Shown piece by piece: positions 7,018 to 35,504 of a stretch of DNA of 64,000 nt. The DNA comes from Ancylobacter mangrovi (GTDB lineage Bacteria; Pseudomonadota; Alphaproteobacteria; Rhizobiales; Xanthobacteraceae), in NCBI RefSeq assembly GCF_024752355.1, contig NZ_JANTHZ010000001.1:558001-622000 (forward strand), written 5' to 3'. Position 1 is the first letter of the stretch; every line of letters begins with the position of its first letter. A program made the translations under genes and the position numbers. The notes beneath the pieces were generated by a model. It saw nothing but the letters and a program-made list of their open reading frames with translations. It ran no database searches and was not told where the DNA came from.

Positions 7018-7043
7018 AACGTTCGATGCGCGCCTCGCGTTCC
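7018..7043 (-). promoter_or_regulatory. Sigma-EcfG-type promoter (GGAAC-N17-CGTT) for glycosyltransferase
   Basis: Perfect match on the minus strand: GGAAC at 7043-7039, 17-base spacer, CGTT at 7021-7018. Expected transcription start is about 7011, some 25 bases before the glycosyltransferase start at 6986. It is one of ten perfect sites in the window. Confidence 0.6.
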
Positions 7044-7075
7044 CTGCCGGCAGGATCACCGGCTGCCAGCCCGCC

Positions 7076-7750
7076 TCAGAGCCGGCCGCCGACCTCGTCG
7101 AGATGGCCGAGCACGTCGGCGGGATCCTCGAACACGCGATAGGCGCCGGCGGTGCGCAGTTCCGCCTCGCCATAGCCGCCCGACAGCAGGCCGATGCCGA
7201 GCGCGCCGCAGCGCACCGCCGCCAGCATGTCCCAGATGCTGTCGCCGACCACCACGGACGAGCCGATCGGCGCGCCGAGCCGGTCGGCGGCGGCGAGGAA
7301 CAGGTCCGGGTCGGGTTTGGCGTATTTCACCATGTCGCGCGTGACGACCGGCACGGCGGACGGATCGACGCCGAGCGCCTCGATGTTGGGCGCAGCCGTC
7401 TCTATGCGCCCGCTGGTGGCGATGGCCCAGCCGATGCCGTTCCCGGTCAGCGCCGCCAGAAGCTCGCGCGCGCCCGGCAGCGGCCGCACGGTAGCGGAAA
7501 GGCGCCGGTAAGCCGCCGCATGGGCGCGGCGAAGCCGCTCGCCGCGCTCGGGATCGATGGTCAGGCCGGTCTCGCGCAGGAGCTGGTTGGTGAACAGCCC
7601 GCCGCTCATGCCGATCTTGCGGTGGATGCGCCAGAAGGAGAGCTCGATGCCCTCCTCGTCCAGCGCCTCCTTCCAGGCGGCGACGTGCTGGTACACGCTG
7701 TCGACCAGCGTGCCGTCGAGATCGAAAAGAAAATGGGTCTGGCTGCGCAT
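7076..7750 (-). CDS. HAD-superfamily phosphatase
   Basis: 224-residue HAD hydrolase of the beta-phosphoglucomutase/phosphoglycolate-phosphatase subgroup. Motif I is FLFDLDGTLVDS (nucleophile Asp), motif II is AIATSG, motif III lysine is in MVKYAKPDPDLF, and motif IV is VVVGDSIWDML. The cap domain lies between motifs I and II. The start MRSQTHFLFDLDGT is chosen because the nucleophile is normally within the first 15 residues, although the frame stays open far upstream. The substrate cannot be named. Confidence 0.9.
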   Translation of the reverse strand: MRSQTHFLFDLDGTLVDSVYQHVAAWKEALDEEGIELSFWRIHRKIGMSGGLFTNQLLRETGLTIDPERGERLRRAHAAAYRRLSATVRPLPGARELLAALTGNGIGWAIATSGRIETAAPNIEALGVDPSAVPVVTRDMVKYAKPDPDLFLAAADRLGAPIGSSVVVGDSIWDMLAAVRCGALGIGLLSGGYGEAELRTAGAYRVFEDPADVLGHLDEVGGRL

Positions 7751-7806
7751 GGCGCCCTCTCCCCGAATAAGTGTCCCCGAAACGTCCGGCGCCGACGCGC
7801 CGGGCG

Positions 7807-8418
7807 TCAGTTCGCGACGCCCCGATAGGGCGCGTCCTTCAGCAGCCGGGCGAGATGGGCCGCGTTGGCGGCCAGGACGCGCGTGGTGTGGCGGGTCTTC
7901 CCGGCGGGCTCCGGCAGGTCCTTGTAGTCGGTGGCGCCCATCGCCTCGCCGACCCAGTAGGTGCCCCCGCCCATGGGAATGGTGAAGCCAATGTCGTTGA
8001 GCGCCTGGAAGATCTCGGCGTGGCAGTGATGCGCGCCGTCCTCGTTGCCCACCACCGCCACCACGGCGACCTTGCCATGGGTGGGCATGCGGCTGTGCTG
8101 GTCGGCCTCGGAGATGAAGGCGTCCATCCGCTCCAGCACCCGCTTGGCGACGGAGGAGGGCTGCCCCATCCACACCGGCGTGCCGATGACGACGATGTCC
8201 GCCGCGAGGATGCGTGTGCGCAGGTCCGGCCAGTCGTCGCCCGGGCCCTCGTCGGCGCTGACGCCGGGCTTAACGTCGAGGTCGACGACGCGGATCGTAC
8301 AGCCCGAGGCATCTTGCGCCTTGAATGCCTCCATCACCTCGTCGAGCAGCCGACCGGTCGATGAGGCGGCGTTGCCGTGCTTCAGCGTGCAGTTGAGCGC
8401 GAGGACGTCGAGGGACAT
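7807..8418 (-). CDS. NAD(P)H-dependent FMN reductase / flavodoxin-fold oxidoreductase
   Basis: 203 residues with a flavodoxin-like fold: MSLDVLALNCTLKHG leads into the phosphate-binding loop, and VVIGTPVWMGQPSSVAKRVLERMDAF is the flavin-binding region. These enzymes reduce quinones, azo compounds or flavins. It starts at MSLDV, because upstream sequence in frame is not protein-like. The intergenic gap to the divergent CBS gene holds a stress-type promoter facing the CBS gene. Confidence 0.85.
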   Translation of the reverse strand: MSLDVLALNCTLKHGNAASSTGRLLDEVMEAFKAQDASGCTIRVVDLDVKPGVSADEGPGDDWPDLRTRILAADIVVIGTPVWMGQPSSVAKRVLERMDAFISEADQHSRMPTHGKVAVVAVVGNEDGAHHCHAEIFQALNDIGFTIPMGGGTYWVGEAMGATDYKDLPEPAGKTRHTTRVLAANAAHLARLLKDAPYRGVAN

Positions 8419-8556
8419 CACGCTTCTCCTTCGTTGGGCATCCCTTGGGAGCACGTATCGGATCGGCCGCGACCTGCCGGCGGGAACTTGCGGGCGGCAG
8501 CGTCGCGGCGCCTGCGACGGCCGGCTTCCGGGCACCGGGACTGAGAAACTTTAGTG

Positions 8557-8581
8557 GGAACTCCGCCACCGACGAACCGTT
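8557..8581 (+). promoter_or_regulatory. Sigma-EcfG-type promoter (GGAAC-N16-CGTT) for CBS protein
   Basis: Perfect match: GGAAC 8557-8561, 16-base spacer, CGTT 8578-8581. The predicted start near 8588 gives a leader of about 60 bases before the CBS-domain gene. Confidence 0.65.
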
Positions 8582-8650
8582 CCCCGGACAGGACGTAGCG
8601 GCAGCGGCACGGGTCCCGAGGTCGCCCTGATCCCAACAATGGAGAGAGCG

Positions 8651-9085
8651 ATGCAGGTGTGGGAAGTAATGACCCGCGACGTGCGCGTCGCCAATGCCGA
8701 CGAGACCATCGAGCAGGCGGCGCGGCTGATGGCCGGCCTCGACGCCGGCAGTCTGCCGGTCGGCAAGGACAACCGGCTGGTCGGCATGATTACCGACCGC
8801 GACATCGTCATGCGCGCCGTGGCGGCCGGCAAGGGGCCGGAGACCAAGGTGCACGAGGTGATGACGCCCGACGTGAAGTACTGCTTCGCCGATCAGGAGA
8901 TCGAAGAGGTCAGCCGCAACATGGGCGACCTGCAGATCCGCCGCTTGCCGGTGGTGGATACCGACAAGCAGCTCATCGGCATCCTCTCCCTCGCCGACGT
9001 CGCCACCGCCGCGACCGACGGCGCGGCGGGCGTGGCGCTGGCCGGCATTTCCCGTCCCGGCGGGATTTACAGCCACACCGGCTAG
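8651..9085 (+). CDS. Tandem CBS-domain protein
   Basis: 144-residue soluble protein made of two CBS motifs (VWEVMTRDVRVANADETI and VHEVMTPDVKYCFADQEI) that together form one adenosyl-nucleotide-binding Bateman module, similar to stress/dormancy CBS proteins. The start at 8651 is preferred over the in-frame ATG at 8639 because GGAGAG sits 5 bases upstream of it. A perfect GGAAC-N16-CGTT promoter at 8557 points to general-stress induction. Confidence 0.88.
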   Translation: MQVWEVMTRDVRVANADETIEQAARLMAGLDAGSLPVGKDNRLVGMITDRDIVMRAVAAGKGPETKVHEVMTPDVKYCFADQEIEEVSRNMGDLQIRRLPVVDTDKQLIGILSLADVATAATDGAAGVALAGISRPGGIYSHTG

Positions 9086-9412
9086 AGGCCCCGGACGGCC
9101 CCCGTGCGGCGGCGTGCGAGAGGCGCGCCCCGCATGGGGACGGTTCGGCGGGCGCCGAATGCCGCTGCGGAAGTCGGCGGAACGACTTTAACCTTTGATA
9201 ATCTTGGCGTTTTTCTGGCGGACACGCTGAACCTTTTGCGGCCGCCGTCGATTGAAGAAGTGGCGGGCAACGACTGGCCCCCCAGCGCTCCAATCACCGC
9301 CCGCACCGACCGGCCGCCGACTGACCGGCCGCCGTCGGAATGCCGCCCAGATCCTGATGGCGGGCCGTGAAGCCCGTTCCGGACAAGCTGGAACTTATCG
9401 GGAGTCACACCC
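9086..9412. other. 327-bp intergenic region
   Basis: No convincing gene. Bases 9180-9240 are unusually A/T-rich for this genome and contain GATAAT at 9197, a possible -10 for the downstream DUF2231 operon. A 12-base direct repeat GACCGGCCGCCG occurs at 9308-9319 and 9323-9334. A ribosome-binding site (GGGAG) precedes 9413. Confidence 0.5.
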
Positions 9413-9862
9413 ATGACCGTTGAAGACGCGCGCGTGATGCGCATCGCCTCCCCTCCGATCCACCCCTTCCTCGCCCTCATCCCGGCCACCTGCTTCACGG
9501 GCGCGCTGCTGACCGACCTCGCCTATTGGGGCTCGGCGCAGATGATGTGGGCCGATTTCTCGGCATGGCTGATCAGCGCCGGCGTGGTGCTCGCCCTGCT
9601 GTTCGCCATCGTCGGGCTGGTCGAGATGATCGTGCGTCCCTCGCTGCGGGAACGCTCGGGGATGGTCCCCTATGTGCTCGGCTACCTGGTCGCGCTCGTG
9701 CTCGCGACCTTCAACATGCTCATTCATTCGCGCGATGCGTGGACGTCCGTCGTGCCCTCCGGGCTCGTCCTGTCGGCGCTGACGGTGCTGGTGCTCATCG
9801 GCACGGCCTTCGCCGGCGCGCTCCTCGTCTATCGCCCTCGCCACGGAGTTGATTACCAATGA
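9413..9862 (+). CDS. DUF2231 family membrane protein
   Basis: 149 residues, four predicted membrane segments (about 17-40, 48-70, 83-103, 115-137). The N-terminal PPIHPFLALIPATCF and the Asp in LLTDLAYW match the DUF2231 family, whose function is unknown. The stop overlaps the start of a sorbosone-dehydrogenase-like gene (ATGA). The pairing suggests the membrane protein is an electron acceptor or anchor for the periplasmic dehydrogenase (inference). Confidence 0.85.
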   Translation: MTVEDARVMRIASPPIHPFLALIPATCFTGALLTDLAYWGSAQMMWADFSAWLISAGVVLALLFAIVGLVEMIVRPSLRERSGMVPYVLGYLVALVLATFNMLIHSRDAWTSVVPSGLVLSALTVLVLIGTAFAGALLVYRPRHGVDYQ

Positions 9863-11220
9863 CCCGCACCCTCATCTCCGCCGGCCGCGGGGCGGCGGTC
9901 GTCCTGCTGTCGGTCACCGCGCTGGCGGTGCCCGGCCTTGCGCAGGAGAACATCGATCCGCAGGCGCAGATCGGCCCCAACCCGACGCTGCCCGAGCCGC
10001 ATGAAGGGCTCTTTCCCACCATGCACCTCGCCGAGGTGGTCGGGTGGAAGGACAACCAGACCCCGACCGCCGCCGCCGGCCTGAAGGTCACGGCGCTGGC
10101 CTCCGGCTTCGAGCACCCGCGCAACATCTTCGTGCTGCCGAATGGCGACGTCCTGGTGATCGAATCGAAGTCGCCCGGCACCGACCCGGTCACGCGGCCC
10201 AAGGGCATCGTGATGAACTGGATCGAGGGCTGGGTGACCTCCGGCGGCGATACCGGCACCAGCAACCGCATCACCCTGCTGCGCGACGCGGATGGCGACG
10301 GCAAGCCCGAGGTCCGCTCGGTCTTCCTCGACCACCTGAACTCGCCCTTCGGCGTGGCGCTGGTCGGCAACGACCTCTATGTCGCCGATACCGACGCGAT
10401 CCTGCGCTATCCCTACCAGACCGGCGACACCAAGATCACCGCCAAGCCCACGGTGCTGACGCCGCTGCCAGGCGGGCCGATCGACCACCACTGGACCAAG
10501 AGCCTGGTGGCGAGCCCGGACGGGACCAAGCTCTATGTCGGCGTCGGCTCCAACAGCAATATCGGCGAGAACGGCCTCGAGGCGGAGAAGAACCGCGCCG
10601 CGATCATGGAGGTCGACCGGGCGACCGGCGCCAAGCGCATCTTCGCCAGCGGCCTGCGCAACCCGAACGGGCTGACCTTCGAGCCGCAGACCGGCGCGCT
10701 CTGGGCGGTGGTGAACGAGCGTGACGAGCTCGGCCCGAACCTCGTTCCCGACTACATGACCTCGGTCAAGGAAGGCGCCTTCTATGGCTGGCCCTACAGC
10801 TATTACGGCCAGCATGTCGACCCGCGCGTCCAGCCGCAGCGCCCGGACCTGGTCGAGAAGGCGATCCCGCCGGACTACGCGCTGAGCTCGCACGTCGCCC
10901 CGCTGGGCCTCACCTTCTACACCGCCAACGCCCTGCCGCAGAAGTATCACGGTGGCGCGTTCGTCGGCGAGCACGGAAGCTGGAACCGCGACCACTTCAA
11001 CGGCTACAAGGTCGTGTTCGTGCCGTTCAAGGACGGCAAGCCGAGCGGCAAGGCCGAGGACGTGGTCACCGGCTTCCTGACCAAGGACGGCAAGGCCCAT
11101 GGCCGCCCGGTCGGCGTCGCCGTCGACAAGAACGGTGCGCTGCTGATCGCCGACGATGTCGGCAACACGGTGTGGCGGGTCACCTCCTCCGGCGCCACCG
11201 CCAGCGCCGCCGGGCTGTAG
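9859..11220 (+). CDS. Sorbosone dehydrogenase family / PQQ-type sugar dehydrogenase
   Basis: 453-residue periplasmic beta-propeller. It has a cleavable signal peptide (TLISAGRGAAVVLLSVTALA, cleavage near GLAQ), then blades of the soluble glucose/sorbosone dehydrogenase type: VTALASGFEHPRNIFVLPNG, FASGLRNPNGLTFEPQTG, GAFVGEHGSWNRDHFNGYK. Family enzymes oxidise aldoses with PQQ. Length and blade motifs match L-sorbosone-dehydrogenase-like proteins. It is coupled by ATGA to DUF2231 and ends before a strong hairpin at 11255-11280. The substrate is unknown. Confidence 0.85.
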   Translation: MTRTLISAGRGAAVVLLSVTALAVPGLAQENIDPQAQIGPNPTLPEPHEGLFPTMHLAEVVGWKDNQTPTAAAGLKVTALASGFEHPRNIFVLPNGDVLVIESKSPGTDPVTRPKGIVMNWIEGWVTSGGDTGTSNRITLLRDADGDGKPEVRSVFLDHLNSPFGVALVGNDLYVADTDAILRYPYQTGDTKITAKPTVLTPLPGGPIDHHWTKSLVASPDGTKLYVGVGSNSNIGENGLEAEKNRAAIMEVDRATGAKRIFASGLRNPNGLTFEPQTGALWAVVNERDELGPNLVPDYMTSVKEGAFYGWPYSYYGQHVDPRVQPQRPDLVEKAIPPDYALSSHVAPLGLTFYTANALPQKYHGGAFVGEHGSWNRDHFNGYKVVFVPFKDGKPSGKAEDVVTGFLTKDGKAHGRPVGVAVDKNGALLIADDVGNTVWRVTSSGATASAAGL

Positions 11221-11254
11221 GCGCCGGCCCTCTCCACTGCTGGAAGAAACCTGT

Positions 11255-11280
11255 CGCGGCCGGCCCATGCGCCGGCCGCG
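11255..11280. terminator. Strong bidirectional hairpin between convergent operons
   Basis: Perfect 10-bp stem CGCGGCCGGC / GCCGGCCGCG with a 6-base loop (CCATGC). It lies between the sorbosone-dehydrogenase gene (plus) and the end of the cytochrome oxidase operon (minus). On the minus strand it is followed by GTTTCTTCC, a modest U-rich tail; on the plus strand by ATGCTTTGC. Confidence 0.7.
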
Positions 11281-11312
11281 ATGCTTTGCGTCTGCGGCCC
11301 CTCCCCGCGCCC

Positions 11313-11588
11313 TCAGGGGCGCATCGCGTAGTCGGCGGAGGTCAGCAGGGTGAAGATGACGAGCCAGGCGGCGACGCCGAGCGCGGCGAGGCGCACCAGC
11401 CCGCCCTCCTCGCGCAGGTGCATGAAGAACCAGTAGATCAGCGCCGCCTTGGCCACGGCGATGGCAAGGCTGGCGGCGAGGCTCGCCGGCCCGGTCAGCG
11501 CGAAGCTGGCGCCGAGCGTGAGCAGCAGCAACCCCAGAAGGGCCGCCCAGACGAGGGAGAGAGTGCGCACCAGGCTCATGCCGCTCAC
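11313..11588 (-). CDS. Cytochrome c oxidase subunit IV (caa3-type)
   Basis: 91 residues with three membrane helices, matching the small COX4_pro/CtaF-type subunit of bacterial caa3 oxidases (conserved KAALIYWFFMHLREE). The start is GTG at 11588, overlapping the subunit III stop (GTGA); an ATG three codons in (11579) is the alternative. It is the last gene of the ACIII/oxidase operon, ahead of the hairpin at 11255-11280. Confidence 0.85.
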   Translation of the reverse strand: MSGMSLVRTLSLVWAALLGLLLLTLGASFALTGPASLAASLAIAVAKAALIYWFFMHLREEGGLVRLAALGVAAWLVIFTLLTSADYAMRP

Positions 11589-22707: not shown

Positions 22708-22723
22708 TATGGGCGCGCTCCCC

Positions 22724-23501: not shown

Positions 23502-23526
23502 GGAACGGGGCGCCCGCCGGACGGTT
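23502..23526 (+). promoter_or_regulatory. Near-consensus sigma-EcfG-type promoter for antiporter gene
   Basis: GGAAC, 16-base spacer, GGTT (one mismatch from CGTT). It ends 86 bases before the antiporter start. The 220-bp gap 23393-23612 also has to hold the promoter of the divergent act operon, which I cannot place with confidence. Confidence 0.35.
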
Positions 23527-23612
23527 GGCGACGGTAACACCGCCCGTTCGTTTCGCACTGAGGCCGACCCGCCGCCGCGATCCGCCGCGGCGGATCGCGC
23601 GCAGGATTGAAG

Positions 23613-24866
23613 ATGCTCTCGCTGTTCGAACTCGTCGCCGGCCTGCTCACGGCCACCGCGACCTTCGCCTGGCTCAACCACCAGTTCCTGAGGCTGCCGG
23701 CCAATATCGGACTGCTGGTGATGGGGCTTGGCGCCTCGCTGGCCCTGATCGGCATCGAGGTGCTGTTCACCGACACCCACATCTACGCCACGCTCGCCGA
23801 CAGCCTGCGCCAGATCGACTTCTACGAGGCGGTGATGAACGGCATGCTGGCCTTCCTGCTGTTCGCGGGCGCTTTGCATGTCGACCTCGACCGGCTGCGC
23901 CGACGGGCCGCCGTGGTGGGGGCGCTGGCAACGCTGGGGGTCGCGCTGTCGACCCTCATCATCGCCACCGGGCTGTGGTTCGGCACCCAGCTCGCCGGCG
24001 TCCACTTCGCCTTTTCCTGGGCGCTGGTGTTCGGCGCGCTGATCGCGCCGACCGACCCGGTGGCGGTGCTTTCGACGCTGCGCTCGGTCGACGTGCCGGA
24101 GAAGCTCAAGACCGACATGAGCGGCGAAGCGCTCTTCAATGACGGCATCGCCGTGGTGCTGTTCACCATCACCCTGCAGATGGCGACCGGGAGTGGGGAC
24201 GATTTCGACGTCTCCCACGTGCTGCGCCTCATCGTGGTCGAGGCCGGCGGGGGCGCGGTGCTCGGCCTCGTCACCGGCTTCATCGCCTACCGGGCGATGC
24301 GCGCGCTCGACGACTACTCGATCGAGGTGATGATCTCGCTCGCGCTGGTCACCGCGACCTATGCGCTCGCCAACGCCATGCACATGAGCGGGCCGATCGC
24401 GGTCGTGGTCGCGGGGGTGCTGATCGGCAATCGCGGCGCCTCGCACGGCATGAGCGACACCACCAAGCGCTACGTGTTCGGCTTCTGGACCCTCGTCGAC
24501 GACATCCTCAACGCCGTGCTGTTCCTGCTGATCGGGCTGGAGGTGCTGGTGCTGCGCTTCGACCCGAGCTTCGCCTGGGTCGGCCTGCTGGCGGTGCCGC
24601 TGGTGGTGGTGGCGCGGTTCCTGGCGGTGGCGGGCTCGGTGACGCTGCTCGCCCGCTGGCAGAGCTTCGCGCGCGGCACGATCCCGGTGCTGACCTGGGG
24701 CGGGGTGCGCGGGGGCATATCGGTCGCGCTGGCGCTCTCGCTGACGGGGACGGACGCGCGCGCGCCGATACTGGCGGCGACCTATGCCGTGGTGCTGTTC
24801 ACCATCATCGTGCAGGGACTGACCCTCGACCGCGTGGTGCGGCGCACGGCGCTGCGCGAGAGCTGA
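23613..24866 (+). CDS. Na+/H+ antiporter, CPA1/NhaP type
   Basis: 417 residues, about twelve membrane helices. CPA1 signatures: FGALIAPTDPVAVLSTL, and LKTDMSGEALFNDGIAVVLF containing the ND ion-binding pair (Asn-Asp). It exchanges cytoplasmic Na+ or K+ for protons. The start at 23613 (ATG) is preferred over the TTG at 23607, because AGGA lies 6 bases upstream of the ATG and touches the TTG. The C-terminal cytoplasmic domain is essentially absent. Confidence 0.92.
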   Translation: MLSLFELVAGLLTATATFAWLNHQFLRLPANIGLLVMGLGASLALIGIEVLFTDTHIYATLADSLRQIDFYEAVMNGMLAFLLFAGALHVDLDRLRRRAAVVGALATLGVALSTLIIATGLWFGTQLAGVHFAFSWALVFGALIAPTDPVAVLSTLRSVDVPEKLKTDMSGEALFNDGIAVVLFTITLQMATGSGDDFDVSHVLRLIVVEAGGGAVLGLVTGFIAYRAMRALDDYSIEVMISLALVTATYALANAMHMSGPIAVVVAGVLIGNRGASHGMSDTTKRYVFGFWTLVDDILNAVLFLLIGLEVLVLRFDPSFAWVGLLAVPLVVVARFLAVAGSVTLLARWQSFARGTIPVLTWGGVRGGISVALALSLTGTDARAPILAATYAVVLFTIIVQGLTLDRVVRRTALRES

Positions 24867-24893: not shown

Positions 24894-24918
24894 GGAACCC
24901 TCCCGCCGGCGATCCGTT
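24894..24918 (+). promoter_or_regulatory. Sigma-EcfG-type promoter (GGAAC-N16-CGTT)
   Basis: Perfect match: GGAAC 24894-24898, 16-base spacer, CGTT 24915-24918. It lies 70 bases before the small gene at 24989. A short hairpin (CCGCC-CGGG-GGCGG, 24882-24895) just upstream may end the antiporter transcript. Confidence 0.65.
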
Positions 24919-24988
24919 CACCCCACAGGCGCCGCGCATCGACCGCCGAGCGCGCACCGTCAGCAACTGATCGAGAAGGAGAGCCGCC

Positions 24989-25309
24989 ATGGCCAGCGAT
25001 GCCAGGTCCCGGCTGGTCGATTTCCTCGACCACGAGGCCTTCGATCCCATCCTGCGCGCCAGCGCCGGGGACTATCCCCGCAGCCGGCACGCGAAGCTGC
25101 ACGACGTCCAGCGGGCGACCGAGAACGAGAAGCGGCGCTATCACGGCTACGATTCCGCCCGCGAGATCTGCCGGATGTTCCGCGACGACCTCGTCTGCGA
25201 GCCCGCGCGCCGGATCGACCGCGAGCTCACCGCGCTGGACCTGCCGACCCTCGACAGCGTGCGCGAGGCGTTCGAACGCCTCGCCGCCGACGTCGGCGCC
25301 ACGCACTGA
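24989..25309 (+). CDS. Conserved-looking small hypothetical protein
   Basis: 106 residues, soluble and charged, no signal peptide or membrane segment. It starts MASDARSRLVDFLDHEAFDP after a good ribosome-binding site (AAGGAGAG). It contains a region rich in basic residues (HDVQRATENEKRRYHGYDSA) and a predicted C-terminal helix. I do not recognise the family. The perfect stress-type promoter at 24894 suggests induction under general stress. Confidence 0.75.
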   Translation: MASDARSRLVDFLDHEAFDPILRASAGDYPRSRHAKLHDVQRATENEKRRYHGYDSAREICRMFRDDLVCEPARRIDRELTALDLPTLDSVREAFERLAADVGATH

Positions 25310-25374
25310 CCCACGGCGATACCTGCCCGCGACCGCCGCGCCGCCCGCGGGCACCAACCTCCCGAGGATGATCG

Positions 25375-26094: not shown

Positions 26095-26170
26095 GGAAAG
26101 GCGTGAGCGCCGCCCTCCCCGGACGGCGCACGCGTTCTGCTGGCCGCCCGCTCGCCCGCCTGGAATCCGG

Positions 26171-26923: not shown

Positions 26924-26947
26924 GGGGCGGCGCGGGGTCCGTCGCGT

Positions 26948-28009: not shown

Positions 28010-28094
28010 TCTGTCTCCATCAATCGAGGTCGCAAGGTTCGCCCGGTAACGCGTGTCAGCGGGGCAGCCGCCGGACGCGAGCGGGCGGTGGGCG

Positions 28095-28637
28095 TCAGGA
28101 CTTCTTGATCACGCCGCAGGCGATCCGGTCGCCCGCATTGCCGGCCGGCTGGCTCACATAGTCGTCCGGGCCGGAATGGATCACGATGGCCGAGCCGTCG
28201 TCGTCGAACAGCGTGGCCTTGCCGGGCTCCAGCGTCACCGCGGTGTCGAGCACCTGAACGCTCATCGTGCCGGCGGCGCCGACGAGCTGGTTCGGCATGT
28301 CGCCCGCATGCGGCCCGTCCGGGTCCATCAGGCCGTGGCGCTTCTGGCGCGGCGCATAGTGCCCGCCAGCGGTCTTGAAGCCGTCCTTCGGGTCGCAGCG
28401 GCCGGTCTGGTGGATGTGGAAGCCGTGCTCGCCCTGCGGGAGCCCGCTCACCTCGACGGCGATGAGGACGCCGTGCAGGGTCTGCCTCAGCGTCGCAGTG
28501 CCGATCTGCGCGCCCTCGGTGTTGATGATGCTCGCGGTGGCGGTCGCGGTCGCGCGGGCGGCCGGTTTCGGCGTTTGCGCGAAGCCGGGCGCGGCGGCGA
28601 GGCAGAGCGCCGCGACGGCGAATGGAAGACGGCCCAT
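28095..28637 (-). CDS. sodC: Periplasmic Cu/Zn superoxide dismutase
   Basis: 180 residues. The signal peptide (LPFAVAALCLAAAPGFAQ) is followed by the SodC domain. Metal ligands are visible in HGFHIHQTGRCD, AGGHYAP, PHAGDMPN and AIVIHSGPDDY. The Cys in TGRCD and in DRIACGVI form the family disulfide. It detoxifies periplasmic superoxide. ATG 28637 is preferred over ATG 28643 because AGGAG lies 6 bases before it and directly abuts the other. A perfect stress-type promoter is located at 28745-28769. Confidence 0.93.
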   Translation of the reverse strand: MGRLPFAVAALCLAAAPGFAQTPKPAARATATATASIINTEGAQIGTATLRQTLHGVLIAVEVSGLPQGEHGFHIHQTGRCDPKDGFKTAGGHYAPRQKRHGLMDPDGPHAGDMPNQLVGAAGTMSVQVLDTAVTLEPGKATLFDDDGSAIVIHSGPDDYVSQPAGNAGDRIACGVIKKS

Positions 28638-28744
28638 GCCCATCTCCTGTGGCTGTGACGGTGACGAGGAACCCCGCCGGCCTTGGCCGGCTGTCCGTCA
28701 GGCCGGCCGATTCCGCCGGCCGGGCGCTCCGCGTCTGCCGGATT

Positions 28745-28769
28745 AACGTTCCGGCCGGAACGCCGTTCC
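28745..28769 (-). promoter_or_regulatory. Sigma-EcfG-type promoter (GGAAC-N16-CGTT) for sodC
   Basis: Perfect match on the minus strand: GGAAC at 28769-28765, 16-base spacer, CGTT at 28748-28745. The leader to the sodC start is about 100 bases. The spacer includes a GTTCCGGCCGGAAC palindrome. Confidence 0.62.
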
Positions 28770-28821
28770 CGCCACCGGGGGGCGAATGTCGCGCCGAGTT
28801 CGCGCGGACCGGCGCGCCGGA

Positions 28822-29877
28822 TCAGTGGCGCGGAGCGGCGCACCGCCCGGCGCCGCAATGGCGGCTGTGGAGCAGGCGGGTGAGCATCTGCGCGCGGCCG
28901 GCGGAGGAGCGCACGGACGCGGCACCAATGCCGAGTTTCCCGCTTTCGAAGGCGGCGATCACGCTGTCATGCACATAGCTGGTGCGGCAGACCGACAATG
29001 TGTTGGCGAGTTGCTCGGCGAGCGGGGCGACCGCCTCGCGGATCTGCCGCCGCCGGCCGCGCTCGCTGGTCTCCGGCGTGACGCGGCCGAGCTGGTCGAG
29101 CACGCCGAGCGATGCGGTCAGGGTACGGAAGTCCTTCAGCGAGATCCGCTGCCCGCTGATGGCCTTGAGGAAGTCGTTCACCTCGTTGGTGCGGACCGGA
29201 TGGATGCGGCCCTCCGCGTCGCGATATTTGAACAGCCGGCTGCCCGGCAGCGTGCGGAGCAGGGTCAGCGCCTCGGCGAGGCGGGCGTCGCGCGCGCTCT
29301 TGCGGATCATCTTGCCGCCCTTGCCCTTGAAGGCGAGCGCGATCTCCTTCCCCTCCACCCGGACATGCGATTTCAGCAGCGTGGTCGCACCCCGGGTGCC
29401 GTTCTCCTCGGCATATTGCTCGCCCCCGGCGCGGATGGCGGTCAGCTCGACGAGCCGGACCACCGCCGCGAGGGCGAGCTGGCGGTCGGGATCGGGCCGG
29501 CGCAGCGCCCGCCGGACCGCCTGGCCGATGGAGACGAGCGCGCCGGCGAGCGCGGCGAGGCGCTGCGCCTTCATCGCCTCGCGCGCCTGGGTCCAGTCGG
29601 GATGGTAGCGGTATTGCAGCCGGCCGGCGGCGTCCTCGCCGACCGCCTGCAGATGCGCCTGCGGGTCGGGCGCGAGGCGCACGTTGCGGTAGGCCGGCGG
29701 CACCGCGAGGCTCCTGAAGCGGGCGAGCGTTTCGGCGTCCTTCAGCACCGCCCCGTCCGCGTCGAGATAGGAGAAGCCGCGCCCGCGCGGGACGCGCCGG
29801 ATCGTCAGCTCGCCGCAGGAGACGAGGCGCAGGCCGAACCGCCGTGCCAGCCGCCTCAGTTCGGTCCTCTCGCTCAT
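28822..29877 (-). CDS. DNA topoisomerase IB (poxvirus/bacterial type)
   Basis: 351 residues, the compact bacterial topoisomerase IB. Landmarks: the N-terminal domain with GFSYLDADGAVLKDAETLARF, catalytic-domain motifs AIRAGGEQYAEENGTRGATTL (first catalytic Arg region), KFRK-like KGKGGKMIRK, ISLKDFRTLTA, and the nucleophilic tyrosine in CRTSYVHDSVIAAFESG. It relaxes supercoils through a 3'-phosphotyrosine. It has its own perfect stress-type promoter at 29909-29933, divergent from another such promoter. Confidence 0.92.
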   Translation of the reverse strand: MSERTELRRLARRFGLRLVSCGELTIRRVPRGRGFSYLDADGAVLKDAETLARFRSLAVPPAYRNVRLAPDPQAHLQAVGEDAAGRLQYRYHPDWTQAREAMKAQRLAALAGALVSIGQAVRRALRRPDPDRQLALAAVVRLVELTAIRAGGEQYAEENGTRGATTLLKSHVRVEGKEIALAFKGKGGKMIRKSARDARLAEALTLLRTLPGSRLFKYRDAEGRIHPVRTNEVNDFLKAISGQRISLKDFRTLTASLGVLDQLGRVTPETSERGRRRQIREAVAPLAEQLANTLSVCRTSYVHDSVIAAFESGKLGIGAASVRSSAGRAQMLTRLLHSRHCGAGRCAAPRH

Positions 29878-29908
29878 CGCGTCACCGTGTCGCCATCACC
29901 GGCGCTAG

Positions 29909-29933
29909 AACGCGCCCCGCCGCGCCGCGTTCC
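29909..29933 (-). promoter_or_regulatory. Sigma-EcfG-type promoter (GGAAC-N16-CGTT) for topoisomerase IB
   Basis: Perfect match on the minus strand: GGAAC 29933-29929, 16-base spacer, CGTT 29912-29909. The predicted transcript starts about 25 bases before the topoisomerase start. It lies back to back with the plus-strand site at 29954. Confidence 0.65.
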
Positions 29934-29953
29934 CGGAGGAGCGGCGAACGGGC

Positions 29954-29978
29954 GGAACGGCGGATGAAGGCCCACGTT
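29954..29978 (+). promoter_or_regulatory. Sigma-EcfG-type promoter (GGAAC-N16-CGTT) for cysteine hydrolase operon
   Basis: Perfect match: GGAAC 29954-29958, 16-base spacer, CGTT 29975-29978. It drives a leader containing a small reading frame (30021-30122) and the cysteine hydrolase gene at 30119. Confidence 0.62.
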
Positions 29979-30020
29979 GATGGGACGCCATATTATCCTG
30001 CCGGCCATGAGGAGGAGGCG

Positions 30021-30122
30021 ATGCACGCGAGGAACGAGGACGCCCGGCCGCGGGGCACGTCACGGGGGGCCGCGGGGAGCCGAACCACCGGGCGCGCCGG
30101 AGCGGGCCGAGCCACGCGATGA
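30021..30122 (+). CDS. Possible 33-residue Arg-rich leader peptide
   Basis: ATG at 30021 is preceded by an unusually strong ribosome-binding site (GAGGAGGAGG at 30009-30018). The frame runs MHARNEDARPRGTSRGAAGS and on to a TGA that overlaps the ATG of the next gene (ATGA). The composition is Arg/Gly-rich. It may be a real small protein, or only a device for coupling translation of the hydrolase. No homology is recognised. Confidence 0.35.
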   Translation: MHARNEDARPRGTSRGAAGSRTTGRAGAGRATR

Positions 30123-30718
30123 CGGAACGACGCGCATCGGCCTTCCACCTCTGCCTCGACATGCAGAGACTGTTCTCGCCGCGCGGTGCGTGGGCGAATG
30201 CGTGGATGGCCGGGGTGCTGCCCAACATCGCCGCCATCTGCGAGAGCTTTGCCGGCCGGACGGTCTTCACCCGCTTCATTCCCGCGCCGCACCCCGACGC
30301 CGAGATCGGCACCTGGCGCGGCTATTACCGGCGCTGGTCGACGCTGACGCTCGAGGAGATCGATGCCGACGAGCTCGCCATCGTCGACGAACTCCGCCCC
30401 TATGCTTCGCGCGCGCCGGTCGCCGACAAGCGGCGCTTCTCCGCCTTCGCCGCGCCCGCGCTGGCGCCGATCCTCAATGGTGCGCACGCCGACACGCTCG
30501 TCGTCACCGGCGGGGAGACCGACATGTGCGTGCTGGCGACGGTGCTGGAGGCGATCGACCGCGGCTATCGCGTGCTGGTGGTCGAAGACGCGGTGTGCTC
30601 CTCCTCCGACCCCGGGCACGAGGCGGCGCTGACCATCTATCGCAACCGCTTCGCCGAGCAGCTCGGTCTCGTCACCACGCGGGAGCTGGTCGAGCAGGTG
30701 GCCGCGCGGGCTCTGTGA
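30119..30718 (+). CDS. Isochorismatase-family cysteine hydrolase
   Basis: 199 residues. The catalytic triad is visible: Asp in FHLCLDMQRLFS, Lys in PVADKRRFSAF, and nucleophilic Cys in VTGGETDMCVLATVLEAID. Such enzymes hydrolyse amides (nicotinamide, N-carbamoyl compounds) or isochorismate; the substrate here is not identifiable. There is no own ribosome-binding site, but the start overlaps the 33-codon frame, suggesting coupled translation from the stress-type promoter at 29954. Confidence 0.88.
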   Translation: MTERRASAFHLCLDMQRLFSPRGAWANAWMAGVLPNIAAICESFAGRTVFTRFIPAPHPDAEIGTWRGYYRRWSTLTLEEIDADELAIVDELRPYASRAPVADKRRFSAFAAPALAPILNGAHADTLVVTGGETDMCVLATVLEAIDRGYRVLVVEDAVCSSSDPGHEAALTIYRNRFAEQLGLVTTRELVEQVAARAL

Positions 30719-30724
30719 CGGAAG

Positions 30725-30749
30725 GGAACGAAGCCCGCGCGGCATCGTT
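30725..30749 (+). promoter_or_regulatory. Sigma-EcfG-type promoter (GGAAC-N16-CGTT) for small membrane protein
   Basis: Perfect match: GGAAC 30725-30729, 16-base spacer, CGTT 30746-30749, about 70 bases before the small gene at 30818. Confidence 0.62.
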
Positions 30750-30817
30750 CTCCGCGAGGCAGGGGACGATGCCGCCGGGGGCACGGCGGGGCAAGCCGCA
30801 GCATCATGGAGGCCATC

Positions 30818-30982
30818 ATGCATGCCCGGACCCTTCTCACCATCGCGCTGGCGCTGATCACCGCGGTCGCGATCGTCTGGTTCATCAGCTCGTTCTTCGT
30901 GCTGCAGGATGAGAACCCGCGCACAAGCCTCGACGCGCCGATTCCGGTCGCGCTCACCGTCCCGGCCGTCGCCTCATCCTGA
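30818..30982 (+). CDS. 54-residue single-pass membrane protein
   Basis: Short frame MHARTLLTIALALITAVAIV with one strong membrane helix (about 5-30) and a short polar C-terminal tail (LQDENPRTSLDAPIPVAL). GGAGG at 30808-30812 is five bases before this ATG; an in-frame ATG at 30806 would overlap that site. The upstream stress-type promoter makes a real gene likely. Family not recognised; small single-helix proteins are common members of alphaproteobacterial stress regulons. Confidence 0.6.
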   Translation: MHARTLLTIALALITAVAIVWFISSFFVLQDENPRTSLDAPIPVALTVPAVASS

Positions 30983-31258
30983 CGGGAGCCGGCTTCGCGA
31001 CGACGGCGGCGCAGCGCGGCCGGTCACAGCGGCCGGCGGTAACATGATAGACAAAAGCCATCATGCTACCTCCACTCCGCGGTGAGACAGGCGCCGTGCC
31101 GGCCGCCGGTGGAACGCCGTGCGTGCGCGGGAATTAACCTAGGTAAATCGCGGACCGGAGGCCCGCCCCCGCGCAGGGCCGACCCCCCGAAGGCTCCTTG
31201 AACGGGAGCACGCGCCGCGGCGCGATCGGACCGACAAACGCATTCTGGAGGTGTCGCC

Positions 31259-31750
31259 ATGCCCCACTTCGCTGGGCGGGTACTTCGTTCCGGAACGACG
31301 GCCGGCCTGCTGATGGCGGCCGTGCTGGCGGGGTGCGCGCGCCGCAAGGGATATACGGCCGTCCAGCCGCTCAACGCGACGAGCCACTGGCTCGATGGCG
31401 GGCGCGCGGCGCGCACGCGGCGGGTCGACCTCGCCCACACGCTTCCCGGCGTCGCCACCCATCTCGCCGCGTCGATGTTCTGGGCCGGCGTGTTCGAGGC
31501 CGCACGGCGCCGCGGCCCGCGCCGGCCGCTGGTGGGCGATGCGGCGGGCGTGGCAGCGCTCGCCGCCTTTGTCGACTATGCGGTGGTGCCGAAACGCCTC
31601 ACGCCGGGCTGGGAGGACGTGGTCGGTTGGCGCGACATCGCGCTTGCCTATGCGGCCATGGCGATCGCCTTCGCCGCCACGGGCGAAAGCTCAATAGAAC
31701 GACTGCGGCGACCGCATAGAACGCCGCTGCGGCTGATGAAGCATAATTAA
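31259..31750 (+). CDS. Conserved hypothetical membrane protein
   Basis: 163 residues with three or four hydrophobic segments (about 14-30, 64-82, 95-110, 126-142). Segments TSHWLDGGRAARTRRVD, HTLPGVATHLAASMFWAGVFEA and AAFVDYAVVPKRLTPGWE resemble a family of unnamed proteobacterial membrane proteins. A GGAGG ribosome-binding site precedes the start. The last 20 residues are basic. The 276-bp gap upstream (30983-31258) shows no gene and no stress-type promoter. Confidence 0.75.
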   Translation: MPHFAGRVLRSGTTAGLLMAAVLAGCARRKGYTAVQPLNATSHWLDGGRAARTRRVDLAHTLPGVATHLAASMFWAGVFEAARRRGPRRPLVGDAAGVAALAAFVDYAVVPKRLTPGWEDVVGWRDIALAYAAMAIAFAATGESSIERLRRPHRTPLRLMKHN

Positions 31751-31883
31751 TCCTGCGGGAGTAGTAAGTTATGTCCGTCAAGCGGAATGAATAGTCGAAT
31801 ATACGTTTCGCCGACGGTTACATTTTACGGAAGCGTTCTTATATGTGCTCGACCACGATCCCTCTCGGGACGAGGAGCAAGCC

Positions 31884-32624
31884 ATGGCTCGCGAAGACCG
31901 CATCGAACTGAAGGCAAGAATGGTCACCGAACGACTGGCGACGCTGAGCGCCCAGCCGCTGGCCGACTTCGCCGTGCTCGAACGCCTGATCTGCCAGCGG
32001 GCGCAGGAAGCGCCGGCCCATGCCGATCTCGTCCGCGAGGGCGAGTCGTCGGCCGGCATCCGGATGATGCTGGGCGGCTGGGCCTGCCGCTACAAGATGC
32101 TGGTGAACGGCCGGCGCCAGCTGCTCAGCTTCGTGCTGCCGGGCGAATTGTGCGATCCCTACATGCACCTGCTCGCCCGCATGGACCATTCGCTGGCCGC
32201 GCTCACGCCGGTCACTTATGCCCAGCTGGGCCGCGAGGAGTCCGAGCGCCTGGTGCACGACCATCCCGCGGTCGCCCGCGCGCTGTGGATCCAGACCATG
32301 TTCGAGATCGGCGTCGAGCGCGAATGGACGGCGAGCCTCGGCCAGCGTGTCGCCTTCCAGCGCCTCGCCCACCTGTTCTGCGACATCTATCTGCGTCTCA
32401 ACATGACCGGCATCGCCGAGGACAACTGGTGCGATTTCCCGCCGACGCAGGGCGATATCGGCGACGCGACCGGCCTGTCCTCGGTGCACGTCAACCGTAC
32501 GCTGCAGGACCTGCGCGCGGCCAACCTCATCACGCTCACCAACAAGCGCCTGTTCATCCGCAATCTCGAGGCGCTGAAGTCGGCCGCGCTGTTCCGCCCG
32601 TCCTATGGCGTGGTGGCACATTAA
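31884..32624 (+). CDS. Crp/Fnr family transcriptional regulator
   Basis: 246 residues. N-terminal cNMP-binding-type beta-roll (RMMLGGWACRYKMLVNGRRQLLSFVLPGEL), dimer helix, and C-terminal winged helix with DIGDATGLSSVHVNRTLQDLRAANLI. The N-terminal Cys cluster of oxygen-sensing Fnr is absent, so it is not a classical Fnr. The start at 31884 has GAGGAG six bases upstream; a GTG at 31845 in frame is less likely. The A/T-rich 133-bp upstream region probably holds its promoter. Confidence 0.9.
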   Translation: MAREDRIELKARMVTERLATLSAQPLADFAVLERLICQRAQEAPAHADLVREGESSAGIRMMLGGWACRYKMLVNGRRQLLSFVLPGELCDPYMHLLARMDHSLAALTPVTYAQLGREESERLVHDHPAVARALWIQTMFEIGVEREWTASLGQRVAFQRLAHLFCDIYLRLNMTGIAEDNWCDFPPTQGDIGDATGLSSVHVNRTLQDLRAANLITLTNKRLFIRNLEALKSAALFRPSYGVVAH

Positions 32625-32702
32625 GGGACCGAGACTAACTTACGTGGTTTCGCGCCCTGCCGAGGTGGCCCATTGTACCGCCACTGAAGGAGCCCGAACA
32701 CG

Positions 32703-32966
32703 ATGACCGATGAACTGGACGTGGCGTTACTCGACCTGTGCATGTGCCAGGCATGGAAGCAGATTCCTCCGGAGATCAAGGAAACCTACGGCGCGGTGAA
32801 CCCGCGGGAACTCCGGCTCAAGCTCGCCCATGCCGTGATCGAGGGTGCCAAGATCTTCGCCGGCGACCCGGACAAAATCGTCGCCTTCGCCCTCTTCACG
32901 CTGCCCTCCCTGCCCAGCGCCTTCGGACGCCCCCATCCGGCCAGCCCGCGCCACCTCGACGCGTAG
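32703..32966 (+). CDS. Small hypothetical protein
   Basis: 87 residues, acidic/helical N terminus (MTDELDVALLDLCMCQAWKQ) with a Cys-Met-Cys, followed by helices and a proline-rich tail. An AAGGAG site lies 10 bases upstream. It sits 78 bases after the Crp-type regulator. Family not recognised. Confidence 0.65.
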   Translation: MTDELDVALLDLCMCQAWKQIPPEIKETYGAVNPRELRLKLAHAVIEGAKIFAGDPDKIVAFALFTLPSLPSAFGRPHPASPRHLDA

Positions 32967-33379
32967 CCGGCCCAAGGGCGGCCCAGGGGAGGCCCCGCGG
33001 AAGCCGCGACGTTCAGCGAGCCCCGCCTTCCCGCCTGCCCTCTCTCGCTCCCCTCGCGAGCGCATGACGCGCGCGAACGCCGCCGCGTCGCCTTATCCTC
33101 ACCTCCCAAAACCTCATCTGCCGACCCATCCGCCGCCGGACATGCCCGTCTGGTGGCGACGAGGCCGTTGCGCCACCCGATCCCGACTTCCTGCCCTCCG
33201 GCCGGAACCTCGCCCGCCGGCCGGCCGTTGACCCATACGGGGACCGGAAAGCCTTCGATCAGGCTCCGGCAGCGCCGCGCGTCAGCCGTGCTCCCCGCCC
33301 CGCCCGCAGCGGCGGGACAGACACCAGACTCATCCACAGGAAGGCGGACGGCGCAGCCCGTCCGCGCAGGGAGAATGTG
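32967..33379. other. 413-bp intergenic region
   Basis: No convincing gene on either strand: open frames here are Arg/Pro/Ala-rich shadows. The only element I can support is the stress-type promoter at 33204-33229, facing the small gene at 33380. Confidence 0.5.
33204..33229 (+). promoter_or_regulatory. Sigma-EcfG-type promoter (GGAAC-N17-CGTT)
   Basis: GGAAC 33204-33208, 17-base spacer, CGTT 33226-33229. The leader to the gene at 33380 would be about 145 bases. Confidence 0.5.
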
Positions 33380-33595
33380 ATGGCCAATGCGAGCCGCAAG
33401 CACATCGGCGTCGGCAGCTCCGGCAAGAAGACCGGCGGCGGCGCGATGACCGACCTGCCCCGGGACACGCTGCCCGAGAACGCGCCGCTGTCCAACCGCG
33501 CCACCAAGCGCCACCCGGAACAGCGGGGCCTCGATTCGAAGGCGGTGCAGACCGACCAGTTCAAGGATCACTCCGCCAATCGCCGCGACGTCTAG
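33380..33595 (+). CDS. Small basic hydrophilic hypothetical protein
   Basis: 71 residues, Gly/Ser/Lys-rich N terminus (MANASRKHIGVGSSGKKTGG), then PENAPLSNRATKRHPEQRGLDSK; predicted disordered, no membrane segment. Composition resembles small stress-induced hydrophilic proteins. ATG 33380 has AGGGAG seven bases upstream; GTG at 33377 is the alternative. A stress-type promoter lies upstream. Function unknown. Confidence 0.72.
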   Translation: MANASRKHIGVGSSGKKTGGGAMTDLPRDTLPENAPLSNRATKRHPEQRGLDSKAVQTDQFKDHSANRRDV

Positions 33596-33657
33596 CGGCG
33601 GCGCCCCGCTCCCGCCCGACGGGCACGGCGCGGGGCGCTTCCTCGCGCCGGCAGCGT

Positions 33658-33683
33658 GGAACGTCCGGTTCGTCTCGTTCGTT
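33658..33683 (+). promoter_or_regulatory. Sigma-EcfG-type promoter (GGAAC-N17-CGTT) for ROK gene
   Basis: GGAAC 33658-33662, 17-base spacer, CGTT 33680-33683; predicted start near 33690, about 44 bases before the ROK gene start at 33734. This position excludes the upstream in-frame GTG at 33656 as the start. Confidence 0.58.
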
Positions 33684-33733
33684 CATGGGAGCGCAACGCG
33701 AAAACGAACACGAACGAGGAGGCGTTTCCCCCC

Positions 33734-34864
33734 ATGGCCAGTGCCGAGCCGAAGACCAAGGAAACGCCTCCCGACGTCGCCGCCCATGGCGGCACCACCC
33801 TGACAGCGGTCACGGTCGACAGCTTCAACGCGCAGCTTCGCGACGAGAACGGCTTCATCGGCGACAGCGTGCGCCGGGCCGCCTTCTTCGAGATCTTCGA
33901 CCGCTGGCGCGCCCTCGGCGACCGCAAGCTCTCGGTGCTGGGCGACACGCCCACCGCCGAGCTCTCCAAGTCGCAGATCGACGAGGCGCTCGCCGACGGC
34001 CGCCCGCACGAGCAGGCGCTCATTCACAGCGCCATCGAAGAATATGCCTGCAAGCTGCTCGCCGTCATCCGGCACCTGATGCGCACGAAGGACTGGCGCG
34101 AGACCCAGCGCATCGTCGTCGGTGGCGGGCTGAGAGGCGGCCGTTTCGCCGAGATCGCGGTCGCGCGCACGGAACTGCTGGCCCGCGCCCACGACATGGA
34201 CGTCGAGTTGCGTCCGATCCGGCACGACCCGGACGAGGCCGGGCTGATCGGCGCCGCCCACCTCGCCCCGAGCTGGATGTTCGCCAGCTTCGAGGACATC
34301 CTCGCCGTCGACATCGGCGGCACCAACATGCGCTGCGGCATCGTGCGGCTCAATCTCGACAAGGCCGAGGACCTGTCCAAGGCGCGCGTGCGCAGCACCG
34401 AGCTGTGGCGCCACGGCGACGAGGAGGTGAGCCGCGAGCAGGTGGTCGAGCGGCTGATCGACATGCTGCAAAAGCTGATCCACGAGGCGGACAAGGACGA
34501 TGTGCGCCTCGCGCCGTTCATCGGCGTCGGATGCCCCGGCTCCATCGCCGATGACGGCACCATCGAGAACGGCGCGCAGAACCTTCCCGGCAACTGGGAA
34601 AGCTCGCGCTTCAACCTGCCCGCCGCGCTATGGCAGGCCATCCCCTCCATCGGCGGTCACGAGACCGCGGTGGTGATGCACAACGACGCGGTGGTCCAGG
34701 GCCTCAGCGAGGTGCCGTTCATGCAGGATGTCGAGCGCTGGGGCGTGCTGACCATCGGCACCGGGCTCGGCAATGCCCGCTTCACCAATCGCGCCCGGGG
34801 CAAGGCTGGCGAGGGCAAGGGAGGCAAGCGCGACGAGCGGAAGGCGGACAAGAAGAAGGACTGA
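33734..34864 (+). CDS. ROK-family protein with circularly permuted domain order
   Basis: 376 residues. Segments normally at the end of ROK kinases come first: a helix then RIVVGGGLRGGRFAE (about 126-140) and HDPDEAGLIGAAHLAP (about 164-179). The normal beginning follows: LAVDIGGTNMRCGIV (phosphate-1 motif, about 190-204), FIGVGCPGSI, VVMHNDAVVQGLSE and LTIGTGLGNARFTN (phosphate-2 motif). The protein then ends in a Lys-rich tail (GKGGKRDERKADKKKD). The ROK zinc motif is absent. It is probably a sugar kinase or a sugar-binding regulator-like protein. A stress-type promoter lies at 33658. Confidence 0.8.
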   Translation: MASAEPKTKETPPDVAAHGGTTLTAVTVDSFNAQLRDENGFIGDSVRRAAFFEIFDRWRALGDRKLSVLGDTPTAELSKSQIDEALADGRPHEQALIHSAIEEYACKLLAVIRHLMRTKDWRETQRIVVGGGLRGGRFAEIAVARTELLARAHDMDVELRPIRHDPDEAGLIGAAHLAPSWMFASFEDILAVDIGGTNMRCGIVRLNLDKAEDLSKARVRSTELWRHGDEEVSREQVVERLIDMLQKLIHEADKDDVRLAPFIGVGCPGSIADDGTIENGAQNLPGNWESSRFNLPAALWQAIPSIGGHETAVVMHNDAVVQGLSEVPFMQDVERWGVLTIGTGLGNARFTNRARGKAGEGKGGKRDERKADKKKD

Positions 34865-34885
34865 CGGGACGGCGCGCCGGTCGCC

Positions 34886-35449
34886 TCAGCTCCCGGCCTT
34901 CCGCCCTCCCGCCGACGTCCCGGCCGATGGCTTGCGCCGCACTGTGCGGCGCTTCGGACCGGAGGCCGGCTTGCTCTTGGTCCGCTCCTTCGCCGCCATG
35001 AGGTCGGCCGGCTCGGCGTCGCTCGCCTCGTCCTTCGTGTCCTCCCCGGCGCCGCCTTCGCGCTCGTGGCGCGCCATCAGCTCATATTCGGAGCGGATAT
35101 CCTCGATCGCCTTGTCGTCGAGCTCCTCGAGATCGAGCAGCACCCGTCGCGTACCCTCGGTGCGGGCGATGAGCTCGTCGATCTTGATGTGAAGCGCCGC
35201 CGTATCGCGGTTCTGGCTGTTCTGGATCACGAACACCATCAGGAAGGTGATGATCGTGGTCGAGGTGTTGATGATGAGCTGCCAGGTGTCGCCGAAGCCG
35301 GCGAAAGGGCCGGTCGCGGCCCAGATCACGATCAGCCCGACGGCGCCGACGAAAGTGACCGGCCGTCCGGCCTGAACGGCGATATATTGCGAGAAACGCG
35401 TGAAGAAGGAACGCTTTGGCTGACCCGCCCGCGTGCTGTTGAGCGCCAT
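34886..35449 (-). CDS. Low-affinity iron permease family protein
   Basis: 187 residues. Two membrane helices (about 30-50 and 60-80) with AGRPVTFVGAVGLIVIWA and INTSTTIITFLMVFVIQNSQNRDT, then LHIKIDELIARTEGTRR: the signature of the short bacterial proteins annotated as low-affinity iron permease (Fet4-like). The C-terminal 60 residues are Lys/Arg/Glu-rich and probably disordered. Whether bacterial members move iron is not established. A perfect stress-type promoter is at 35480-35504. Confidence 0.82.
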   Translation of the reverse strand: MALNSTRAGQPKRSFFTRFSQYIAVQAGRPVTFVGAVGLIVIWAATGPFAGFGDTWQLIINTSTTIITFLMVFVIQNSQNRDTAALHIKIDELIARTEGTRRVLLDLEELDDKAIEDIRSEYELMARHEREGGAGEDTKDEASDAEPADLMAAKERTKSKPASGPKRRTVRRKPSAGTSAGGRKAGS

Positions 35450-35479
35450 TCGACACCCCCTTATGAAACCGCACAGGCA

Positions 35480-35504
35480 AACGCGGCCGCACGCGGCTGG
35501 TTCC
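35480..35504 (-). promoter_or_regulatory. Sigma-EcfG-type promoter (GGAAC-N16-CGTT) for permease-like gene
   Basis: Perfect match on the minus strand: GGAAC 35504-35500, 16-base spacer, CGTT 35483-35480. The leader is about 25 bases. Confidence 0.65.

Follow-up and report, generated by a model that had tools for sequence, protein, structure and literature searches.

The closest described systems are the regulons of EcfG (ECF15), the sigma factor of the alphaproteobacterial general stress response, in Sphingomonas melonis Fr1, Sphingopyxis granuli TFA and Methylobacterium extorquens AM1. Passages from the literature on these species give the promoter consensus as GGAAC-N16-CGTT in S. granuli, GGAAC-N17-20-GTT in S. 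melonis (PMC6599016) and GAAC-N16,17-C/GGTT in M. extorquens (PMC4814048). The -10 box of S. granuli is described in part of PMC7083833 as flexible, with CGTT the commonest form and TGTT among the boxes, and changing CGTT to TGTT or CATT reduced transcription in vitro. Genes for topoisomerase IB, Ku, a CRP-like protein and a glycosyltransferase are named in the S. melonis excerpt as EcfG-dependent with GGAAC sites (PMC6599016), as is ku-ligD in the S. granuli excerpt (PMC7083833). Here we analysed a 64,000-nucleotide stretch of Ancylobacter mangrovi (C12:558001-622000 in our coordinates, hereafter the window), in which ten perfect copies of GGAAC-N16/17-CGTT occur; judged from the DNA sequence, these are very probably EcfG promoters.

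In consensus and spacing, and in possessing the regulators PhyR, NepR, EcfG and an HWE kinase, A. mangrovi resembles these three species, and the targets overlap by name (topoisomerase IB, Ku, glycosyltransferase); the overlap with the Ku, glycosyltransferase and CRP-like targets of S. melonis is one of names. What sets the locus apart from the described regulons is the concentration of roughly one quarter of the likely real perfect sites in a single 28.5-kb cluster distant from the regulators. Dense EcfG sites likewise occur in the phyR-nepR-ecfG stress neighbourhood, as on contig C16 of this genome and in a genome from another family of the order (G019, C2:250217-308507, covered by L259 and L260), which has 15 perfect sites in 58 kb and phyR, nepR and ecfG in the part read (L260), whereas the window cluster, on a contig other than C16, has neither a NepR nor an EcfG gene.

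The sequence-only reading had listed ten perfect sites and proposed that they are general-stress promoters. All ten were recovered at exactly those coordinates and strands, with GGAAC as the -35 box in 10/10 and CGTT at 16-17 nucleotides from it in 10/10, and the window holds no further perfect site at these spacings. About one site had been expected by chance, and our estimates agree: base composition gives 0.68, and the genome rate at eight other spacings gives 0.59. Each site had also been said to point at the next gene. We defined promoter position as lying outside a gene body with a same-strand start within 200 nucleotides, using GC-frame gene calls and tolerating an overlap of up to 120 nucleotides with the longest open reading frame (ORF); by this rule all ten have such a start downstream and none falls in a gene body. 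The site at 33658 lies within the longest ORF for the ROK-family protein (GTG at 33656), and the ATG at 33734 was taken as its start. The site at 7018 is crossed by a seemingly spurious ORF, the accepted gap of 6987-7075 running from an ORF that reads as HAD-like to the glycosyltransferase gene. No perfect site precedes the respiratory genes of the window, and no EcfG gene is present in it, both as the sequence-only reading had stated. The NepR gene is likewise absent from the window; PhyR was located beside NepR on C16, no separate PhyR search having been made. The sites and their neighbouring genes are as follows (window coordinates).

2436..3356, minus strand: ku, longest ORF (Pfam Ku, 2.2e-42); likely start about 3245 (MAQHSFWKG...) by reading
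3277..3301, minus strand: EcfG-type site with GGTT -10 box (GGAAC-N16-GGTT) before ku, from the motif scan; fits M. extorquens GAAC-N16,17-C/GGTT
5793..6986, minus strand: glycosyltransferase family 2 (Pfam, 3.7e-05)
7018..7043, minus strand: predicted perfect EcfG-type promoter, N17, by motif; 32 nucleotides to the glycosyltransferase start
8557..8581, plus strand: predicted perfect EcfG-type promoter, N16, by motif; 58 nucleotides to the CBS gene start
8639..9085, plus strand: protein with two CBS domains (Pfam CBS, 3.2e-26)
23502..23526, plus strand: EcfG-type site with GGTT -10 box before the antiporter gene, from the motif scan
23607..24866, plus strand: Na+/H+ exchanger (antiporter; Pfam, 3.4e-58)
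24894..24918, plus strand: predicted perfect EcfG-type promoter, N16, by motif; 71 nucleotides to the start of the 106-amino-acid gene
24989..25309, plus strand: 106-amino-acid protein (no Pfam match)
28095..28643, minus strand: SodC, Cu/Zn superoxide dismutase (Pfam, 7.2e-41)
28745..28769, minus strand: predicted perfect EcfG-type promoter, N16, by motif; 102 nucleotides to the SodC start
28822..29877, minus strand: DNA topoisomerase IB (Pfam Topoisom_I, 9.9e-24; Top1B_N_bact, 6.7e-21)
29909..29933, minus strand: predicted perfect EcfG-type promoter, N16, by motif; topoisomerase IB half of a divergent pair
29954..29978, plus strand: predicted perfect EcfG-type promoter, N16, by motif; isochorismatase half of the divergent pair
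30119..30718, plus strand: isochorismatase-family cysteine hydrolase (Pfam, 4.8e-36)
30725..30749, plus strand: predicted perfect EcfG-type promoter, N16, by motif; 57 nucleotides to the start of the small membrane protein
30806..30982, plus strand: small membrane protein, 58 amino acids from the longest start or 54 from MHAR (no Pfam match)
33204..33229, plus strand: predicted perfect EcfG-type promoter, N17, by motif; 148 nucleotides to the start of the 71/72-amino-acid gene
33377..33595, plus strand: 71/72-amino-acid protein (no Pfam match)
33658..33683, plus strand: predicted perfect EcfG-type promoter, N17, by motif; 51 nucleotides to the ATG at 33734
33734..34864, plus strand: ROK-family protein, longest ORF from 33656 (Pfam ROK, 4.2e-10)
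34886..35449, minus strand: low-affinity iron permease family protein (Pfam Iron_permease, 1.6e-46)
35480..35504, minus strand: predicted perfect EcfG-type promoter, N16, by motif; before the iron-permease-like gene
37243..37267, plus strand: possible weaker EcfG-type site with TGTT -10 box before a short-chain dehydrogenase/reductase (SDR) gene; inside the longest SDR ORF, near its start

Near matches had been noted before ku, the antiporter and the SDR gene, and each proved to be one base off the perfect motif (GGTT, GGTT and TGTT, respectively). Accepting GGTT as well brings the count in the first 38.2 kb of the window to 12 sites, 12/12 of them in promoter position, versus 0.75 such control sites; on the basis of their GGTT boxes, ku and the antiporter gene are likely EcfG targets, and the SDR gene with its TGTT site is a possible one. 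A further perfect site in promoter position was observed before a DJ-1/PfpI gene 2 kb to the left of the window (G000:C12:555996), so that the cluster reaches slightly past the window edge.

Across the whole genome (4.91 Mb, 22 contigs) we found 91 perfect sites. Spacings of 12-21 nucleotides gave 273 matches in total, with about 182 at the eight wrong spacings, or 45.5 per two spacings, leaving an excess of about 45 at the true spacings; the 182 is approximate by a few, nested matches having been counted once (the ROK site is listed in its N13 form). This spacing control is the one we relied on. Two other patterns were used just to control for composition: swapping the order of the boxes gave 51 genome matches, and reversing each box in the original order gave 24, with 6/24 intergenic by the gene calls. 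A genome-wide comparison of coding and intergenic DNA, which the sequence-only reading had proposed, bore that reading out, with 46/91 perfect sites in promoter position versus 4/48 wrong-spacing controls among the matches listed; these controls came from 40 stretches covering part of the listed off-spacing matches, and sites less than 400 nucleotides from a stretch end were dropped. From these two fractions, about 42 perfect sites are estimated to be real. Promoter position was found for 10/10 sites in the window and for 36/81 elsewhere. The ten sites of the window cluster would thus amount to about 24% of the likely real ones in 0.58% of the genome, and in 20,000 random placements of 91 points no 28.5-kb interval received more than 7. 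Base counts over the 46 promoter-position sites revealed no clear extended element besides the two boxes; a C after GGAAC was weakly preferred (50% of the 46, versus 27% of the other 45).

The genome also contains the cognate regulators. NepR has a single genome match, on C16, adjoined by PhyR (with PhyR_sigma2 and receiver domains), EcfG and an HWE kinase. This kinase-PhyR-NepR-EcfG locus sits on a different contig from the window cluster and has sites of its own: C16:180726-191135 holds six perfect sites, of which three are in promoter position, before phyR, a PRC-barrel gene and a 257-amino-acid gene, and nepR is preceded by a one-mismatch site, GGAAC-N16-TGTT. Of the 36 genes with promoter-position sites outside the window, 28 were scanned with Pfam, as were EcfG and the kinase. 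Promoter-position sites elsewhere precede genes for three DUF892 proteins, a DJ-1/PfpI protein, a GH13 (alpha-amylase family) enzyme, a KGG stress-motif protein, a glycine-betaine-type binding protein and a LigD primase-polymerase. This separate LigD gene (L041:2021-3390, G000:C12:937320), distinct from the ligD-ku pair at the window start, has its perfect site 55 nucleotides upstream. Another perfect site lies 30 nucleotides upstream of a sigma factor gene read as RpoH-like (Pfam regions 1.2, 2 and 4; L076:2066-3046, G000:C21:103565), which suggests a possible sigma cascade.

Sites are also kept before relatives of two of the targets. Topoisomerase IB loci were taken from 80 genome records, comprising 60 alphaproteobacterial loci, 17 others, 2 of unclear class and 1 (L162) dropped for too little upstream DNA. 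A perfect site on the right strand within 300 nucleotides upstream was found in 27/60 alphaproteobacterial loci, 0/17 others and 1/2 unclear ones, classes being assigned from record titles and upstream distance measured from where the protein match begins, in many loci some residues inside the gene. Twelve wrong spacings at the same 60 loci gave 2 matches. For the iron-permease-like gene, a perfect site was present at 17/24 other genus matches (18/25 including the window's own), while sixteen wrong spacings gave 0. A CBS relative in A. gelatini (L113), 76% identical, is also preceded by a perfect site. Pairs of perfect sites on opposite strands, shifted by 2 nucleotides and forming one palindrome (GGAACG...CGTTCC), were observed at G011:C1:2079488 and 2924157, G015:C1:3742986, G019:C2:259622, G028:C6:628312 and G020:C296:6104. 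One of the G011 palindromes and the G015 palindrome precede the iron-permease-like gene; such a palindrome could drive EcfG transcription both ways.

In genus relatives, the surroundings of topoisomerase IB are rich in sites as well. The gene is present in 14/26 genus genomes, and a back-to-back site pair upstream of it, as in the window, occurs in 8/13 relatives. Thirteen stretches of 19-20 kb around it contain 45 perfect sites in total, versus 2.5 predicted by wrong spacings; the number per stretch ranges from 1 to 8, and two of the three stretches with a single site carry a more distant topoisomerase IB (51-54% identical). The cluster in G031 has 9 sites in 20 kb and holds mostly other genes, namely those of GH13 enzymes, a DUF892 protein and proteins that we take to be GlsB-like and DUF2934-like. 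Three of these have homologues on other contigs of A. mangrovi, each homologue with its own site (GlsB-like, 81%; DUF892, 86%; GH13, 68% identical); the G031 copy of GH13 that matches at 68% has no site directly before it. The DUF892 gene, with a site, is also found near topoisomerase IB in G007 and G008, and relatives of the small membrane protein (58/54 amino acids) near it in G031 and G015. Given the scattered homologues with their own sites and the DUF892 genes of G007 and G008, some genes seem to move along with their promoters. In G031, a back-to-back site pair was also seen about 250 nucleotides before an apparent cytochrome-oxidase gene set (L210:12018-12087), unlike in the window.

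We simulated clustering for this genome (G000) and four relatives, G031, G015, G010 and G011 (the length of G011 rounded), leaving out G019 and G028. The densest cluster was that of topoisomerase IB in G031 (9 sites) and G015 (7 sites), reached in 0/5000 simulations, and a six-site group in G010 (simulated frequency 0.0048) and in G011 (0.006), which is without topoisomerase IB; we take these six-site groups to be the phyR region, judged by spacing and order alone.

Several further observations concern individual genes. Upstream of the isochorismatase gene, a 33-amino-acid ORF (30021-30122, plus strand) is opened by the first ATG with a ribosome-binding-site-like, purine-rich leader, GAGGAGGAGG, and its end overlaps the isochorismatase start as ATGA; this ORF is possibly a remnant, or else a leader ORF. 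In G031, the divergent site and the isochorismatase gene flank a DUF2934-like protein. The ROK protein had been called permuted, and its Pfam match agrees with this, being confined to the C-terminal half and using the family's N-terminal part. Two Reyranella records and one Rhodospirillales record (L116, L127, L129) carry relatives of this protein, 50-52% identical, no more than 10 kb from topoisomerase IB, and 5 perfect sites were counted in 19.8 kb of L116.

Could the sites have arisen by chance in GC-rich DNA? By the spacing control, about half of the 91 genome sites are chance-like, and 30/81 outside the window lie within gene bodies; in the window, about 0.6 were expected and ten found, all in promoter position, and sites are kept before relatives of targets. 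With the spacing, placement and conservation controls in agreement, we reject a chance origin, to which we attach a negligible probability. It is very unlikely that the sites are real promoters read by another extracytoplasmic function (ECF) sigma factor with a similar -35 box, outside PhyR control. Sigma-70 region 2 is matched 15 times in the genome, several of these matches being in short ECF-sized frames, and AAC in the -35 box is given as a general ECF promoter trait in part of PMC7083833; on the other side, the motif matches the EcfG consensus as excerpted for S. granuli, M. extorquens and S. melonis, and an identical motif occurs at the phyR locus and before relatives of known EcfG-dependent genes.

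The sequence-only reading had spoken of a stress island. As a cluster this stands, while nothing found here shows a mobile island. That the cluster was acquired as a block would fit the presence of topoisomerase IB in only 14/26 genus genomes and the variation of its neighbours between species, yet no tRNA gene lies in the window, and a Pfam scan of 30 window proteins, a part of the window's total, showed no integrase or transposase. Relatives have only pieces in common, with neighbours differing gene by gene, and the homologues of the three G031-cluster genes are scattered over other contigs here, each with its own site; block acquisition is therefore not supported and seems unlikely. Some results do weigh against reading the ten sites as EcfG promoters. 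No perfect site was found at 33/60 alphaproteobacterial topoisomerase IB loci, and some of the 27 positive loci are close relatives with a nearly identical spacer and hence not independent. The CBS gene has a perfect site at only 1/6 other genus matches, 54-64% identical (2/7 including its own), counting the 7 matches of at least 54% identity out of a longer match list. Conservation was tested for three of the target genes, those of topoisomerase IB, the iron-permease-like protein and the CBS protein. The CRP-like gene and ligD of the window have no GGAAC-C/GGTT site upstream, the former in contrast to the CRP-like EcfG target of S. melonis, and the swapped-box count of 51 puts the chance background perhaps somewhat above 45.5. 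The general-stress promoter reading is nevertheless supported by placement versus controls, by the cognate sigma system in the genome and by the sites kept before relatives of two targets.

From the sites, their spacing and placement, the regulators and the conservation at two targets, we infer the signalling steps and transcription itself, following the kinase-PhyR-NepR-EcfG pathway outlined in part of PMC8103513. Under stress, the HWE kinase beside phyR on C16, or similar kinases, would phosphorylate PhyR; PhyR would draw NepR off EcfG; and EcfG-RNA polymerase would start transcription at GGAAC-N16/17-CGTT. The window would then represent a second stress-gene cluster away from the regulators, with some ten to twelve separately switched units serving DNA topology and repair (topoisomerase IB, probably ku), oxidative defence (SodC), ion transport, glycosyl transfer and the production of small proteins. 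The consensus match and the EcfG-dependent topoisomerase IB and Ku of S. melonis identify the predicted mechanism as the known general stress response; the clustering and gene turnover are the less ordinary part. No report joining Ancylobacter and EcfG was found in the open-licence papers searched, nor, among the titles and abstract openings listed, one on clustering of the regulon. A more novel but unlikely idea is that the topoisomerase IB neighbourhood in Ancylobacter is a gathering place for general-stress genes, where small cassettes of a single gene and its EcfG promoter come and go one by one while promoter density stays high. Selection may favour holding these genes in one physical domain that switches together, its supercoiling set by the stress-induced topoisomerase IB; such a shared supercoiling domain is speculation.

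These data extend the general stress regulon to Ancylobacter by strong sequence evidence, and several unnamed small proteins gain candidate stress functions. Recurrent clustering of separately promoted regulon members, with gene turnover, offers a testable case of chromosomal regulon organisation.

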